Below are positions 49,035-54,446 of a DNA stretch of 64,000 nt, one piece after another; positions within the stretch are counted from its first letter, which is position 1, and every line of letters starts with the position of its first letter. The translations under genes were made by a program, and so were the position numbers. The stretch lies in NCBI GenBank assembly GCA_002722845.1, contig PBND01000040.1, positions 1 through 64,000 of the forward strand. The letters run 5' to 3'. The notes under the pieces are model-generated. The model had not been told where the DNA came from, did no database searches, and worked only from the letters and a program-made list of their open reading frames with translations. This DNA comes from Myxococcales bacterium. Lineage in GTDB: Bacteria; Myxococcota; UBA4151.

Positions 49035-49736
49035 ATGAACCGCCCCATGCGACCATTTAGTTTCTTCCTCTGCCTAGCGAGTGCTTGCGGAACCGCTGGG
49101 CCGGTGGACTCCAGGCCCGCCTGGCATGCCGAGGTCGCAGGGGGCAGTGACTGCCAACGTTGGCAACGGCGAGCGACGGAGGAAAAGCCAGAGAGTCGCT
49201 GGCACCAAAGGGCCTTATGGCGATGGTGTCGCTGCCAATTGGAGGCAAACCAGGACCCGTCCGAGCCGCTACTGCGGATGGCTTCTTTGGGAAGCGAAGC
49301 AGGCTATTTGAGTGATGGCATCGCAGAAGCGCTTGCCGACGAGGGATTGAGCTTGTCGCTGCGGCGACGACTTGCAGGACAACTCGAGGGAGAGCTCACG
49401 GGGGAACCGGCCGCCGCACTCGCTTGGGGTCGGGCGATGATGGAGCCCGAGGCGTCAAGAACATCAGCACTGCGGGCAGTCATTCGTTTGGACACCCACG
49501 GTTGGAGAGGGCGCCATGCCCGGGCCTTGCTCGCTGAGAAAGCCCCGCCGGAAGAGGCAGCGGCTTTGCTTGAGGCGGCCCTTGAGCCCCACCCGAGCGT
49601 CCTGGCCAGTCTGGGCCATTCGGAGTTTGGCGGTAGCCTCAGGGCAGCTCAGCGATGGCTTGAACTCTGCGAGAAGCATCCGACCCTCCGTTGCAAGAAG
49701 CGGGCGGCCAAGCGGCTCTCGGAGTTATCCCGATGA
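49035..49736 (+). CDS. Putative helical lipoprotein coupled to the MCE transporter
   Basis: A 233-residue protein with a short lipoprotein signal (MNRPMRPFSFFLCLASAC). The mature part is Ala/Leu/Glu-rich and looks like a set of helical hairpins (TPR- or HEAT-like) with several Trp and Cys residues in the first part (WHQRALWRWCRCQ). No family recognised. Its stop overlaps the ATG of the first transporter ATPase (ATGA), so it is translated with the MCE system and is a candidate periplasmic or outer-membrane accessory, comparable in position, not in sequence, to MlaC or MlaA. Confidence 0.6.
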   Translation: MNRPMRPFSFFLCLASACGTAGPVDSRPAWHAEVAGGSDCQRWQRRATEEKPESRWHQRALWRWCRCQLEANQDPSEPLLRMASLGSEAGYLSDGIAEALADEGLSLSLRRRLAGQLEGELTGEPAAALAWGRAMMEPEASRTSALRAVIRLDTHGWRGRHARALLAEKAPPEEAAALLEAALEPHPSVLASLGHSEFGGSLRAAQRWLELCEKHPTLRCKKRAAKRLSELSR

Positions 49737-50431
49737 TCCAATTCGATGAGATCACGATCGGTCCGATTCGCAACTTGAGCCTGCGCTTAGAGCGCGGACT
49801 CGTTTATGGCCTGTTGGGCCCCTCCCAATCGGGAAAATCGAATTTGTTGTGGTGCCTTGCGGGCCTCCTGCCACCGGAGCAAGGCACCGTGGATGTCTTT
49901 GGCCGGCGGCTCTATAGTGGTGATGCGGCTGATCACCTGGCCCACCGCGCAGATGTTGGCGTGGTCTTTGATCAGCCGGCCATTTTGCCGGAACTTACAA
50001 CCCTTGAGAATGTTCGCTTGCCCCTGGATTTGCGCGGCGTTGAAACGGATGTCGGCGACGAGCGAGCCCGCTATTTGTTGGACCGCATGGGGCTCAAAGA
50101 GGCCGAAGGGAAGCGCCCCAGCGAGCTCTCTGGGGGCATGCTCACCCGGCTGCAAGTGGCTCGAGCTCTTGCCGCCCGCCCGGCCCTCCTCCTCTTTGAT
50201 GGCCCGACCGCTGGCCTGGATCCCGTGACGGCTGCCCGTTTGCTGAAATTGCTCCGGGAATGCGTCAACGAAAGTCAGGCCACCGGCTTCGTGACGAGCC
50301 ACGACCTCACCGGCGCCATGGCAGCCTGTGATGCTATTTTGCTGGTGAGCAAGGGGCACTTGCGCGGCCCCTTGCCACCGGAACTTGCCGGCGACGTACA
50401 GCGGTTTCATCAGGGGGAAGAGCCGTGGTAG
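49733..50431 (+). CDS. MlaF-like ABC ATPase A, lacking the catalytic glutamate
   Basis: A 232-residue nucleotide-binding subunit. Walker A GPSQSGKS (29-36), intact signature LSGGM (132-136), Walker B LLLFD ending at D156, and the switch H190. The residue after D156 is Gly157 (codon GGC at 50201) where almost all ABC ATPases have the catalytic Glu. It is thus a degenerate NBD by itself, but it supplies a good signature motif to its partner. It is paired by operon structure with ATPase B at 51878, two permeases and an MCE protein. The start at 49733 overlaps the lipoprotein stop. Confidence 0.85.
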   Translation: MIQFDEITIGPIRNLSLRLERGLVYGLLGPSQSGKSNLLWCLAGLLPPEQGTVDVFGRRLYSGDAADHLAHRADVGVVFDQPAILPELTTLENVRLPLDLRGVETDVGDERARYLLDRMGLKEAEGKRPSELSGGMLTRLQVARALAARPALLLFDGPTAGLDPVTAARLLKLLRECVNESQATGFVTSHDLTGAMAACDAILLVSKGHLRGPLPPELAGDVQRFHQGEEPW

Positions 50432-51174
50432 CGCGGGTGCTGAAAACCTTGGCCCGACCTTGGGACTGGGCGATGGAGCCGCTGGCCTTATTGCGGAGCT
50501 GCCTGACGGTTCGTCCCGATTTTCGAGCCACACTCTCCCAACTGGAGCACTTCGGTTATCGGTCCATGGGGATTGTGGCGACGGCAGGTTTGGCCGTCGG
50601 CGGGATTGTGGCCGTCCATACCGGGGGTTATGTACGAGACTACTCAGCCGGTGACCTTGCCGGCTGGGCCGTTGGCTATGCCACCTTGCGGGAGATCGGC
50701 CCCCTGCTCACGGGACTGTTGCTTGCTGGCCGCGTCGGCGCCATGAATGCGGCCGAGCTCGCAGACATGAAGGCCCGGGACCAAATCCTGGGCTTGGAGG
50801 CGCTGGGTCTTAATCCGGTTCCTTTGGTGATTGGGCCACGGGTGTGGGCGGCTTTCGTCGCCGGTATCCTGCTTTACAGTTTGGCCGCGTTGTGCGCGCT
50901 GACGACCGCGGTGCTGGGTGTGGCGCTAAGCGGTGGTCTCAATCTCCAGCCCTTCTTGATTTCGCTGCATACAGGGACACCGGTCGCCTACTTGCTCATC
51001 GGTCAGTTCAAGGCCGGTGTCTTCGCCTTGGTGGTGGCCTTGTGGTCGACGAAAGAAGGCCTGAAAGCGTCCGCTGGGGGAGCTGAGGTCGGCAGGGCGG
51101 TGAACAACGCGGCCGTCGGCAGCGCCGTGGGAATTGTGGTGGCCAACTTCTTCCTCACCTTGGTGCTGCCGTGA
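50425..51174 (+). CDS. MlaE-family permease A
   Basis: A 249-residue inner-membrane permease of the MlaE (DUF140) family, start GTG at 50425 after AGGGGGA. Conserved LREIGPLLTGLLLAGRVGAM and the cytoplasmic coupling segment AAELADMKARDQI...LEALGLNPVPLVIGPRVWA are close to the consensus. About five membrane segments. It overlaps ATPase A and permease B genes. It probably forms a heterodimer with permease B at the centre of the lipid transporter. Confidence 0.88.
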   Translation: MVARVLKTLARPWDWAMEPLALLRSCLTVRPDFRATLSQLEHFGYRSMGIVATAGLAVGGIVAVHTGGYVRDYSAGDLAGWAVGYATLREIGPLLTGLLLAGRVGAMNAAELADMKARDQILGLEALGLNPVPLVIGPRVWAAFVAGILLYSLAALCALTTAVLGVALSGGLNLQPFLISLHTGTPVAYLLIGQFKAGVFALVVALWSTKEGLKASAGGAEVGRAVNNAAVGSAVGIVVANFFLTLVLP

Positions 51175-51881
51175 CGACCTCGCCTCGGACCGGTGTTCGC
51201 CCGCCCTGGCTCGCGGGTCAGGCTTGGCTACACCTCGACCATATGTCCGTCGGCAGTTTGCCCCTGATATTGATCACTTTGGGACTCACAGGTGTTGCTT
51301 TTGCCCGGGAGGGCGCCGTGCAGGCGCTGCGCATCATTGGTACCGCCGAAGTGCTCGGACCCCAGTTTCTCGAACTCGCCGTCGCAGAGCTCGGACCGAT
51401 CATTACAGGCTTGATGCTGACCGTCCGTGTCGGTTCTGGAATCGCTGCTGAGATCGGCAACCTGACAGTCAGTCACGCAACGGTTGCCTATCGGACCTTC
51501 GGGGGGCGACCGTTACGGGATCTGGTGATGCCTCGGGTCTGGGCCGGTGCGGCCGGGTGTATGATTTTAGTGCCCATCGGGACGGCGAGTTTCGTCCTAA
51601 GTGGCACCGCTGCCGTTTGGTTTTGGTTTGATGTTCCGCCTCAAGAGTTTCTCTTCCTACGTGGCCTCGAACCGGTCACTGTGGCGGCATCCGTCGCCAA
51701 GAGTCTGGGATTTGGTGCGGCGATTCCGTTCATCGCAGCCCGGGCCGGCTTGCGCGCTCGAGGTGGCTCGGGGGCGGTTGGTGAGGCGGCGGCGGTGGCC
51801 GTGGTCCAAGGCACCATCGCAGTCCTATTTATCGATCTTCTCATCTCAACAGCGATGGTCGCCGCTCGGGGCATGCTATGA
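51171..51881 (+). CDS. MlaE-family permease B, diverged
   Basis: A 236-residue MlaE-family permease, GTG start overlapping the previous stop (GTGA). It keeps ELGPIITGLMLTVRVGSGIAAEIG, but the coupling segment (NLTVSHATVAYRTFGGRPLRD) departs from the family consensus seen in permease A (M-K-x-x-x-x-I-x-x-LEALG). The C-terminal helices are conserved in type. The sequence difference from permease A is large, so these are not recent duplicates. A heterodimeric membrane core is the natural reading. Confidence 0.85.
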   Translation: MTTSPRTGVRPPWLAGQAWLHLDHMSVGSLPLILITLGLTGVAFAREGAVQALRIIGTAEVLGPQFLELAVAELGPIITGLMLTVRVGSGIAAEIGNLTVSHATVAYRTFGGRPLRDLVMPRVWAGAAGCMILVPIGTASFVLSGTAAVWFWFDVPPQEFLFLRGLEPVTVAASVAKSLGFGAAIPFIAARAGLRARGGSGAVGEAAAVAVVQGTIAVLFIDLLISTAMVAARGML

Positions 51882-52624
51882 CCCAGCCCATCCGTGTGAC
51901 GAATCTTTCCAAGGCCTTTGGTGATCAAGTCGTACTCGACGGCATCGACCTTCACGTGGACCATGGCGAGATCCTCTATGTTGTCGGGCCTTCCGGCACT
52001 GGAAAGTCTGTTCTGAGTCGCTGTGTGCTTGGATTGATGGCGCCAGATGGTGGTCAGATCGAATTGGATGGTCGGCCGATCCCTGAGTTTGGTGCGCCGG
52101 AATGGCTCTCTGTTCGGCGCCGGGTTGCGATGGTGGTGCAGTTCCCCGCGTTGCTCGAAGAACGATCTGTGGTGGAAAACATCGCGCTGGCCGCCCGCTA
52201 TGGCCGGGGACTGCGGGCAGTCCAGGCCGATCGTATGGCTCTTGATTTGATGGAGCGACTGCAAATTCGTCATCTGGCCTTCACAGACCCTGGGGATCTC
52301 GGGCCCGGTCTCGCCAAGGCGGTTGCCCTCGCCCGGGCCTTGGCCGTGGGGGCGAGCACACTTGTTCTCGACGAACCGACCACGGGGCTCGACCCGATTC
52401 AGGCGAAGGTGGTCGATGAAGCCATTGTCGAGGTGGTCCGCAGCGCTGGGTTAGCCTGCCTGGTCATCAGTCACGATTTGGAAGGGATGCAGAAAGTCGC
52501 AGACCGGGCCCTCATGCTGTATCAAGGCAAAGTCCACGTCGCGGGGACGCCCGCGAGCTTGGCGTCGGAGCCAGACCCTGTCTGGCAACAGTTCTTGAGG
52601 GGTGAAGCGGAGGGCCCCCTTTAA
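51878..52624 (+). CDS. MlaF-like ABC ATPase B, with degenerate signature motif
   Basis: A 248-residue ATPase. Walker A GPSGTGKS (37-44), Q-loop Q88, Walker B LVLDEP with the catalytic E166, and switch H199 are all intact. The signature, normally LSGGQ/M, reads LGPGL (141-145): the Ser that contacts the gamma-phosphate is Gly and the second Gly is Pro. Together with ATPase A the defects are complementary: A contributes a working signature to B's catalytic site, and B's bad signature faces A's dead Walker B. Start overlaps permease B stop (ATGA). Confidence 0.85.
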   Translation: MTQPIRVTNLSKAFGDQVVLDGIDLHVDHGEILYVVGPSGTGKSVLSRCVLGLMAPDGGQIELDGRPIPEFGAPEWLSVRRRVAMVVQFPALLEERSVVENIALAARYGRGLRAVQADRMALDLMERLQIRHLAFTDPGDLGPGLAKAVALARALAVGASTLVLDEPTTGLDPIQAKVVDEAIVEVVRSAGLACLVISHDLEGMQKVADRALMLYQGKVHVAGTPASLASEPDPVWQQFLRGEAEGPL

Positions 52625-53685
52625 TGGCGAACCTTGTCACACGGCTAAGGGTTGCGGTGCTCGCATTGTTGAGCCTCGTTCTCTTTCTTGGCCTGCTTGC
52701 CTACTTGGCCGACTGGCTGCCGGATCGCGGTCATTCGGTTCACGTACGGTTTAGCCAGGCGGGGCCCCTCCATGGTGGAGCCCGGGTCCGCTTGGCCGGG
52801 CAGACCATCGGCCGAGTCCGGACCGTACGGCTGTTAACGGCCGAAGAACGGGCCTCTGCTCAAGGTCACCTCCTCCAGGTGGAGTTGAGAATCCTGCCCG
52901 AGTTCGCCCACCTCGTAACGGAGCGAAGCCGTTTCCTCGTCACCACACGGGGGGTGCTCGGTGAGCATTATGTGGAGGTCGTCCCCGGCCCGCCCGGCGC
53001 GGACCTCCTCCAAGCAGACTCCGTGGTTTCCGGCGAAGACCTTCCCCGGACAGACCTCGTCCTTGCTCAGGTGCAGCGCCTGGTGAACCAGGTTATCGAA
53101 GTGTTCGAATCGGATCCTGATTCGGCCCGCAGTCTTTTGCGCAACACGGCGAGCCTGATCGGACGGATGGATACGTGGTTCGACCGAAACGGGGGCGAGA
53201 TGGACCGACTGGTTCGAGGGCTCTCCGATGCGAGCGAAGGCCTGGCCGCCGGCGTGGGCGACGGCCAAGCCATGGCCAACGCAGTGCGGCAGTTGACTCG
53301 GGCGAGCGAAATCCTGAGTCGGGACCTTCCGCCTGCTACCGACGGGATCGTCCGGGCCGCGGATGGTTTGGCCGGGACACTGACAACGGTTCAATCAGCA
53401 GCCACGGGCATCGAAGGTGCGGTGGTTGAGGTGTCGACGGCAGCGGGCGATATCCAGCGTTTTCTGGGTAAAGACGGCGATGCCAGCCGTGCTCTCGAGG
53501 CCATCGTCGAGGTGGTGCCCACCGTGACCCGAGTGGTGAATGACTTGGGCGTGGTGGTGGCTTCACTGAAGAATGGTGAAGGGCTCGCAGGGGCCTTGCT
53601 GAAAGACCCAGAACCCCTCGAGGATTTCAAGGAGTTGCTCCACGAACTACGGGCCCAGCCATGGAAACTCGTCTGGAAGCGCTAG
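52624..53685 (+). CDS. MCE-domain lipid-binding protein (MlaD-like)
   Basis: A 353-residue protein with one N-terminal membrane helix (about 10-30), an MCE domain (about 38-118; VRFSQAGPLHGGARVRLAG...IGRV, TTRGVLGEHYVEV) and a long helical C-terminal region rich in Ala, Val and Thr (about 140-335), longer than in E. coli MlaD. In this family six copies form a ring under the permease and the tail can make a tube or needle through which lipid moves between membranes. Start overlaps the ATPase B stop (TAATG). Only one MCE gene is present. Confidence 0.88.
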   Translation: MANLVTRLRVAVLALLSLVLFLGLLAYLADWLPDRGHSVHVRFSQAGPLHGGARVRLAGQTIGRVRTVRLLTAEERASAQGHLLQVELRILPEFAHLVTERSRFLVTTRGVLGEHYVEVVPGPPGADLLQADSVVSGEDLPRTDLVLAQVQRLVNQVIEVFESDPDSARSLLRNTASLIGRMDTWFDRNGGEMDRLVRGLSDASEGLAAGVGDGQAMANAVRQLTRASEILSRDLPPATDGIVRAADGLAGTLTTVQSAATGIEGAVVEVSTAAGDIQRFLGKDGDASRALEAIVEVVPTVTRVVNDLGVVVASLKNGEGLAGALLKDPEPLEDFKELLHELRAQPWKLVWKR

Positions 53686-54446
53686 TCACCTGGCCCACGG
53701 AGCGGGTTTTTCCCGAACGCCGTGAGCAGCGCGATGACCCCGTTGTGGTGGAGGAACCGCTGAGCATCTTTCTGCAGGGGGAGCCCTGGACAGTGACGAT
53801 GCGCAGCCCTGGACACGATGAGGCCTTGGCCTTGGGCTTACTCTACAGCGAGGGGCTGATCCTTTCCCCCGATGATGTCGTTGGCATGGAGATCGATGGC
53901 GGTCTGCGAATCCGCTTGCGAGAGAAGCCCGATCTCAGCGCCCATCAGTACGCCCTTTGGCGAAGCTCTGCCTGTGGTCTGTGTGGGGCGCAGAGCATCG
54001 AGCAATTGGCCCAGCGCTGGTCCCCGGTACGCCACCGAACCCCGGCCCAGGAGCGGGAGTTGATGCATGCCCCGGAGCATTTGCAGGCCCGCCAGAAGAT
54101 CTTCCAACTCACGGGGGGCATCCATGGCGCAAGCCTGGCTCGGGTCGGGGAGTCGTCGCCCCTGGCCGTGGCCGAGGATGTCGGTCGGCATAATGCAGTC
54201 GATAAATTGCTTGGTTTGGCGCTGGTCAAGGGCTGGGTGAATGAACCGGGCTTGATTCTCTCGGTGACCAGCCGTGTTGGTTTTGAAATTGCAGCGAAGG
54301 CTTGGGCCCTGGGTTGTGAATATCTGGTCGCCGTTGGGGCGCCCACAAGCCTTGCCCTGGAAACCGCTGTGCGGGCTGAAATCACCGTAGCTGGTTTTGC
54401 TACGGGGGACCGTCTCAATCTCTACTGCGGCCGGGAACGCCTTTAG
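53661..54446 (+). CDS. fdhD: FdhD-type sulfurtransferase for molybdenum enzymes
   Basis: A 261-residue FdhD homologue, which moves sulfur from a desulfurase to the Mo cofactor of formate dehydrogenases. The Cys pair is in SACGLCG (about 107-113), and the family motifs TGGIHGA, EDVGRHNAVDKLLG, SRVGFE and GAPTSLA are present. It overlaps the MCE gene by 25 bases. No formate dehydrogenase or Mo-cofactor genes lie nearby except a MOSC-domain protein 2.8 kb downstream. Full length. Confidence 0.88.
   Translation: METRLEALVTWPTERVFPERREQRDDPVVVEEPLSIFLQGEPWTVTMRSPGHDEALALGLLYSEGLILSPDDVVGMEIDGGLRIRLREKPDLSAHQYALWRSSACGLCGAQSIEQLAQRWSPVRHRTPAQERELMHAPEHLQARQKIFQLTGGIHGASLARVGESSPLAVAEDVGRHNAVDKLLGLALVKGWVNEPGLILSVTSRVGFEIAAKAWALGCEYLVAVGAPTSLALETAVRAEITVAGFATGDRLNLYCGRERL

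Follow-up and report, generated by a model that had tools for sequence, protein, structure and literature searches.

A myxococcal MCE-type transporter operon encoding two ATPases with complementary motif losses and two MlaE-family permeases

The operon and its products

The system considered here is a predicted MCE-type ATP-binding cassette (ABC) transporter encoded in a stretch of 64,000 nucleotides, hereafter the window, comprising positions 1 to 64,000 of contig PBND01000040.1 (C40) from a Myxococcales bacterium of the phylum Myxococcota (assembly GCA_002722845.1), whose draft genome of 2.68 Mb is spread over 92 contigs and is about 70% complete. Between positions 49733 and 53685 of the forward (+) strand, on which the five genes, their motifs, and the lipoprotein-like gene upstream of them lie, five open frames are arranged head-to-tail in the order ATPase A, permease pA, permease pB, ATPase B and MCE protein M, with successive overlaps of 7, 4, 4, and 1 base pairs (bp). 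In Pfam, A and B match ABC_tran, pA and pB match MlaE, and M matches MlaD/MCE. A preliminary description, made from the letters of the window alone, had proposed an operon of two ATPases and two MlaE permeases in which all genes overlap their neighbors, and both statements are borne out, the latter including a 4 bp overlap upstream of A.

ATPase A (49733-50431; 232 amino acids (aa); ABC_tran E 3.5e-26) is a generic ABC ATPase that bears the MCE-type signature LSGGM, the form with Met being typical of Mla/TGD (MCE) ATPases (PMC7367683). Its Walker A motif GPSQSGKS (49817-49840) is intact, such that ATP binding is expected, and the signature itself (50126-50140) is likewise intact, while in the Walker B motif LLFDGP (50189-50206) the catalytic Glu is replaced by Gly157, giving Asp-Gly in place of Asp-Glu. 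In the Q-loop region VFDQPAI (49964-49984), the aligned Gln position is occupied by Asp, and the H-loop TSHDL (50294-50308) retains a His that is still present in the window's family. ATPase B (51878-52624; 248 aa) is MlaF-like, with MlaF as its top NCBIfam match at 149.5 bits, which is below the cut-off of that model, and with a match to MlaF in the PDB at 2.8e-41. Its catalytic parts are intact, comprising the Walker A motif GPSGTGKS (51986-52009), the Q-loop region VVQFPAL with the Gln kept, the Walker B motif LVLDEP (52361-52378) with the catalytic Glu166, and the H-loop ISHDL (52466-52480), whereas its signature has degenerated to LGPGL (52298-52312), which replaces LSGG[MQ]. The Walker B and signature residues are thus as first described for both proteins (Gly157 with LSGGM in A, Glu166 with LGPGL in B), although the altered Q-loop position of A had been overlooked.

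The permeases pA (50425-51174; 249 aa; PF02405 E 8.7e-48) and pB (51171-51881; 236 aa; PF02405 E 9e-38) both belong to the MlaE family and both begin with GTG. The predicted structure of pB (predicted local distance difference test (pLDDT) score of 91) has the MlaE fold and resembles MlaE and YrbE1A/B at query TM-scores of 0.73-0.86. The coupling segment of pB, AEIGNLTVSHATVAYRTFGG (51447-51506), departs from EQxDAL, and this peculiarity, noted from the outset, is real in the window but family-specific: among the loci read, the unusual form (SHATVAYRTFGG) is shared by the window and its nearest relative alone. It was rejected as a general trait of the design since most other pB proteins keep EQxxAL.

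The MCE protein M (52624-53685; 353 aa; PF02470 E 1.1e-12) has one N-terminal transmembrane helix (helix 2-30), one MCE domain, and a long helical tail ending in DFKELLHELRAQPWKLVWKR; the alignment of MCE proteins shows a conserved terminal motif, DLKxLxxDLRKHPWKxLWKD. The predicted model of M contains the transmembrane helix, the MCE domain and long helices, with the helical part being uncertain (pLDDT of about 35-76 per block), and its top Foldseek matches are Mce1 chains and MlaD.

Complementary losses across Myxococcota

Each ATPase was placed on a reference alignment to locate its motifs, and the counts that follow refer to distinct sequences (63 of A and 62 of B), many of which come from Myxococcaceae and Archangiaceae, with 13 family-level groups being represented for A and 15 for B. 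Walker A and the Walker B Asp are present in all A sequences (63/63 each), as is the SGG of the signature (63/63), the next residue always being Met. The catalytic Glu is absent from 58 of the 63, and the remaining 5 lack the H-loop His, which is found in only 3/63, so that Glu and His occur together in none (0/63). From the invariance of Walker A and the Asp, it seems probable that the impaired site still binds ATP. The B sequences show the converse arrangement, with Walker A, the Q-loop Gln, and the catalytic Glu each retained in 62/62 and the H-loop His in 61/62, the single exception being truncated there, while SGG is found in 0/62 and is replaced by LGPG, VGPG, LGAG, LSAG, and similar forms.

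As a control, canonical MlaF-type ATPases of the same phylum were read in the same manner, and all motifs were intact in 14/14. A second control consisted of the best matches to the A profile in 25 genomes picked for having no strong pB match; of these 30 ATPases, 28 are canonical and intact, one is of the A type (G018), and one is of the canonical type without Glu and His (G010), which leaves 28/29 canonical ATPases intact. One G015 gene is common to both control sets. The G010 protein (L210:7072-7878) is an orphan MlaF-type ATPase with an intact LSGGM, in which the catalytic Glu is changed to Asp and the H-loop His to Pro and near which there is no MCE permease; it is possibly an independent case of such a loss.

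The preliminary description had claimed that the two ATPases form complementary sites, one complete and one dead, and the motif pattern behind that claim holds throughout the 63 A and 62 B proteins, with no homologue restoring both Glu and His in A (0/63) or LSGG in B (0/62). Judged from these sequences, the complementary pattern is far beyond chance. The state of the draft genome, with its many contigs and incomplete sequence, might be taken to favor local decay, a frameshift or an assembly error as the source of the unusual motifs, but this explanation, to which we attach a practically negligible probability, is ruled out by the recurrence of the pattern phylum-wide in distinct proteins, by frames without breaks, and by the low ratio of nonsynonymous to synonymous substitution rates (dN/dS) in A. 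The latter lies between 0.04 and 0.40 in nine close pairs and within the range of the other four genes, which indicates that A is not decaying; it shows no relaxed selection.

In phylogenetic trees, pA and pB each form a single clade with a Shimodaira-Hasegawa-like approximate likelihood ratio test (SH-aLRT) support of 99, and the internal order of the two clades is similar. In a tree computed without the motif columns, B is likewise a single clade (99), placed near canonical MlaF.

The motif pattern, taken together with the analogy to known ABC systems, points to a type VIII (MlaFEDB/Mce1-like) MCE lipid transporter in which an obligate A:B ATPase heterodimer would act on a pA:pB permease pair, a reading for which we estimate a probability of roughly 0.8. 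Separate A:A and B:B homodimers appear unlikely from the sequences, as an A:A dimer would be without hydrolysis parts, and a B:B dimer without a proper signature, at both of their sites. The same consideration bears on the proposal that the operon encodes two transporters, A2 with pA2 and B2 with pB2, which share one MCE protein. While the order A-pA-pB-B is compatible with two such cognate pairs, either homodimer would have two impaired sites, there is a single MCE gene, pA and pB are adjacent in every complete locus, and the solved state of Mce1 is a permease heterodimer, all of which makes this arrangement very improbable.

Distribution and linkage of the two ATPase genes

A strong match to the pB profile was found in 93/195 Myxococcota genomes, representing 37/90 genera, and the transporter is present across the myxobacteria, Myxococcus xanthus included. 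The order A-pA-pB-B-M recurs in many families, from the window's own through Myxococcus, Pyxidicoccus, Corallococcus, and Archangium. In G001, the closest relative that carries the locus, the operon is complete, with an identity of 51-66% per gene (57% for A); Asp-Gly recurs there in A and LGPG in B. A search of plasmids gave one match only, which was weak and cyanobacterial.

The two ATPase genes are, in several lineages, found apart from the rest of the operon. In one clade (G024, G029, G033, G037, and G040), the locus reads pA-pB-B-M without A, and A-type ATPases are encoded at other sites of these genomes (L104-L108), with [LI]SGGM intact and the H-loop His changed to Asn. Both A and B are unlinked in G133 and G134 (L111, L112, L168, and L169), and B is unlinked in G079 and G011 (L170 and L171), in each case with the same losses, while G006 has a candidate A in which Thr replaces the His (L179). 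In G039, the locus reaches the contig end, so that no judgement on A can be made. Most loci seemingly without A or B were therefore rejected as counter-examples, being explained by unlinked genes or contig ends, with G003 left unexplained. That the complementary losses are kept without linkage argues for selection acting on A and B as a pair.

It has to be noted that several observations weigh against an obligate A:B heterodimer. The genome of G003, which is 100% complete, has a pA-pB-B-M locus (L079) in which B carries LGPGQ, and an A that was searched for in it was not found, such that B may work without A in this organism. Conversely, G018 carries an A-type ATPase and no strong pB-type match. 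The A proteins group together only weakly (68) in the tree without motif columns, and the sorting of ATPases into A and B relied on profiles built from the A and B families, although it agrees with gene position in the linked loci. Moreover, a few A proteins keep the Glu (5/63) or the His (3/63), which implies that the presumed silent site may hydrolyse ATP slowly.

The case of G003, where B is kept with pA, pB, and M in a complete genome, and the separate encoding of A in several families are what might be expected if a B:B homodimer with two weak signatures did the work and A had an accessory or regulatory role outside the catalytic dimer. This alternative is considered unlikely, though less so than two transporters sharing one MCE protein, given that A retains LSGGM/ISGGM and Walker A in 63/63 sequences, which would be needless for a mere regulator, that a B:B dimer would have a proper signature at neither site, and that most lineages have A at the locus in its usual place.

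Proposed mechanism and relation to known transporters

In the model proposed here, the A:B motor would lie below the pA:pB permease heterodimer and would contain two unlike sites. At the first, Walker A, the Q-loop, the Walker B Glu, and the H-loop of B would face the LSGGM of A to form a complete, ATP-hydrolysing site; at the second, Walker A of A would face the LGPG-type signature of B to form a site that binds ATP and is without catalytic parts. This second site would stay ATP-bound through successive cycles and act as a clamp, as has been proposed for type I exporters with such degenerate sites (PMC7756269). M, the only MCE protein, would assemble as a hexamer with a periplasmic ring and a helical needle, and each stroke, at the cost of one ATP, would transfer a lipid between the pocket in the permeases and the tunnel of the MCE hexamer. 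We infer the A:B and pA:pB assembly, a stoichiometry of 1:1:1:1:6 (A:B:pA:pB:M), the division of labor between the two sites, and lipid as the substrate. The asymmetry of pA and pB could serve an asymmetric substrate, by analogy with a suggestion made for YrbE1AB (PMC9882608).

Among known systems, the mycobacterial transporter Mce1 (YrbE1A/YrbE1B, MceG, and Mce1A-F; PDB 8FED/8FEE/8FEF) is similar in having a permease heterodimer of MlaE fold and an MCE ring with a helical needle, and the models of M and pB match its chains; it differs in that its ATPase is a homodimer of MceG and its MCE proteins are of six kinds (PMC9882608), as against two specialised ATPases and one MCE protein here. The MlaFEDB complexes of E. 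coli, P. aeruginosa, and A. baumannii share the MlaE fold, an MlaF resembling B, the MlaD-type MCE domain, and the LSGGM seen in A, whereas their MlaF and MlaE are homodimers accompanied by MlaB, as opposed to the heteromers predicted here and an operon with no MlaB gene. Pfam searches of the operon and its neighbors found no STAS domain, the rest of the genome not having been searched for it. The minimal MlaEFD of the Veillonella type also has a long MCE protein and an operon without MlaA or MlaB (PMC10665443), but it comprises one ATPase and one permease, and its MlaD ends in a β-barrel that the model of M does not show. As for the outer membrane, MlaA (PF04333) was found in 0/10 genomes searched, with the E. 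coli positive control being matched, while MlaC (PF05494) was found in 8/10, away from the locus, and gave no match in the window genome (about 70% complete), which suggests that the outer-membrane partners probably differ from those of E. coli.

A probable functional parallel is with heterodimeric ABC exporters such as TM287/288, TAP, TmrAB, and BmrCD, in which paired nucleotide-binding domains (NBDs) also show complementary site losses: one NBD has the Glu changed to Asp, often with a changed H-loop, and the signature of the partner is altered, which leaves one site complete and the other silent (PMC7756269). In those type I exporters, the transmembrane domain and the NBD are joined in one chain, in contrast to the separate NBD proteins and MlaE-fold permeases seen here, so that the present system would resemble them in its working and is not a member of their class. 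MCE transporters with solved structures have ATPase homodimers (PMC7367683, PMC9882608), a trait from which the two ATPases with complementary losses would, by their motifs, depart.

The preliminary description knew of no MCE system built in this way. Insofar as this concerned paired permeases, it does not stand, and two permeases were rejected as a novelty, since Mce1 already has YrbE1A/YrbE1B (PMC9882608). With regard to asymmetric ATPases it does stand: no MCE system with such ATPases, and none from myxobacteria, was found described in the open-licence literature, although a description elsewhere is possible, and two surveys of MCE systems (PMC5561183, PMC10665443) describe no asymmetric ATPases and name myxobacteria in neither. 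It seems probable, if less so than the heterodimer itself, that the phylum-wide myxococcal class independently evolved the first obligate asymmetric ATPase heterodimer of the type VIII/MCE family, with one hydrolytic and one ATP-clamp site, set on a permease heterodimer and kept even where A and B are unlinked.

What degenerate ATP sites are for is still debated in the case of type I exporters, in which they have been studied thoroughly, and the same solution would here be met in an unrelated permease fold. With the two ATPases encoded by different genes, each site could be altered singly, which makes the purpose of a silent site directly testable, and the pattern is conserved phylum-wide and occurs in Myxococcus xanthus, a genetically tractable species. 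There is disagreement over the direction and the stroke of MCE transporters, and a built-in left-right asymmetry would label the two sides of the complex.

Several further observations concern the surroundings of the locus. In 7/18 diverse loci (L072, L074, L076, L081, L082, L092, and L153), the gene immediately upstream of A encodes a UbiB/AarF-type ABC1 atypical kinase, with PF03109 detected in the three that were tested (e.g., L076:2120-3820). Kinases of this family are associated with the handling of lipids and quinones, and the gene product may be a partner of the transporter. In four loci (L066:7928-9000, L067, L074, and L080), the MCE gene has a pair of MaoC/HadAB-like dehydratase genes on its 3' side, hinting at a fatty-acyl substrate. 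In the window, the position upstream of A is taken by a gene for a possible accessory lipoprotein (49035-49736; 4 bp overlap with A) with a lipobox-like LASAC, for which no Pfam match was found and which has a relative in G001 only (E 7e-15), not being conserved beyond it. Downstream lies fdhD (53661-54446), the gene for a formate dehydrogenase accessory sulfurtransferase; counted from its first start codon, it shares 25 bp with the MCE gene, and it may be co-transcribed with that gene or begin at a later start. A Myxococcus-like locus of the same layout (L135) occurs in BNCN01000004.1, a record titled Comamonas sp. KCTC 72670, the genome of which seems mislabelled. Finally, the genome of the window carries a second, separate MCE locus (L102, on contig C18 of G000) with one permease and one ATPase, the latter reading DELTTGLDP, with Pro changed to Leu after the Glu.

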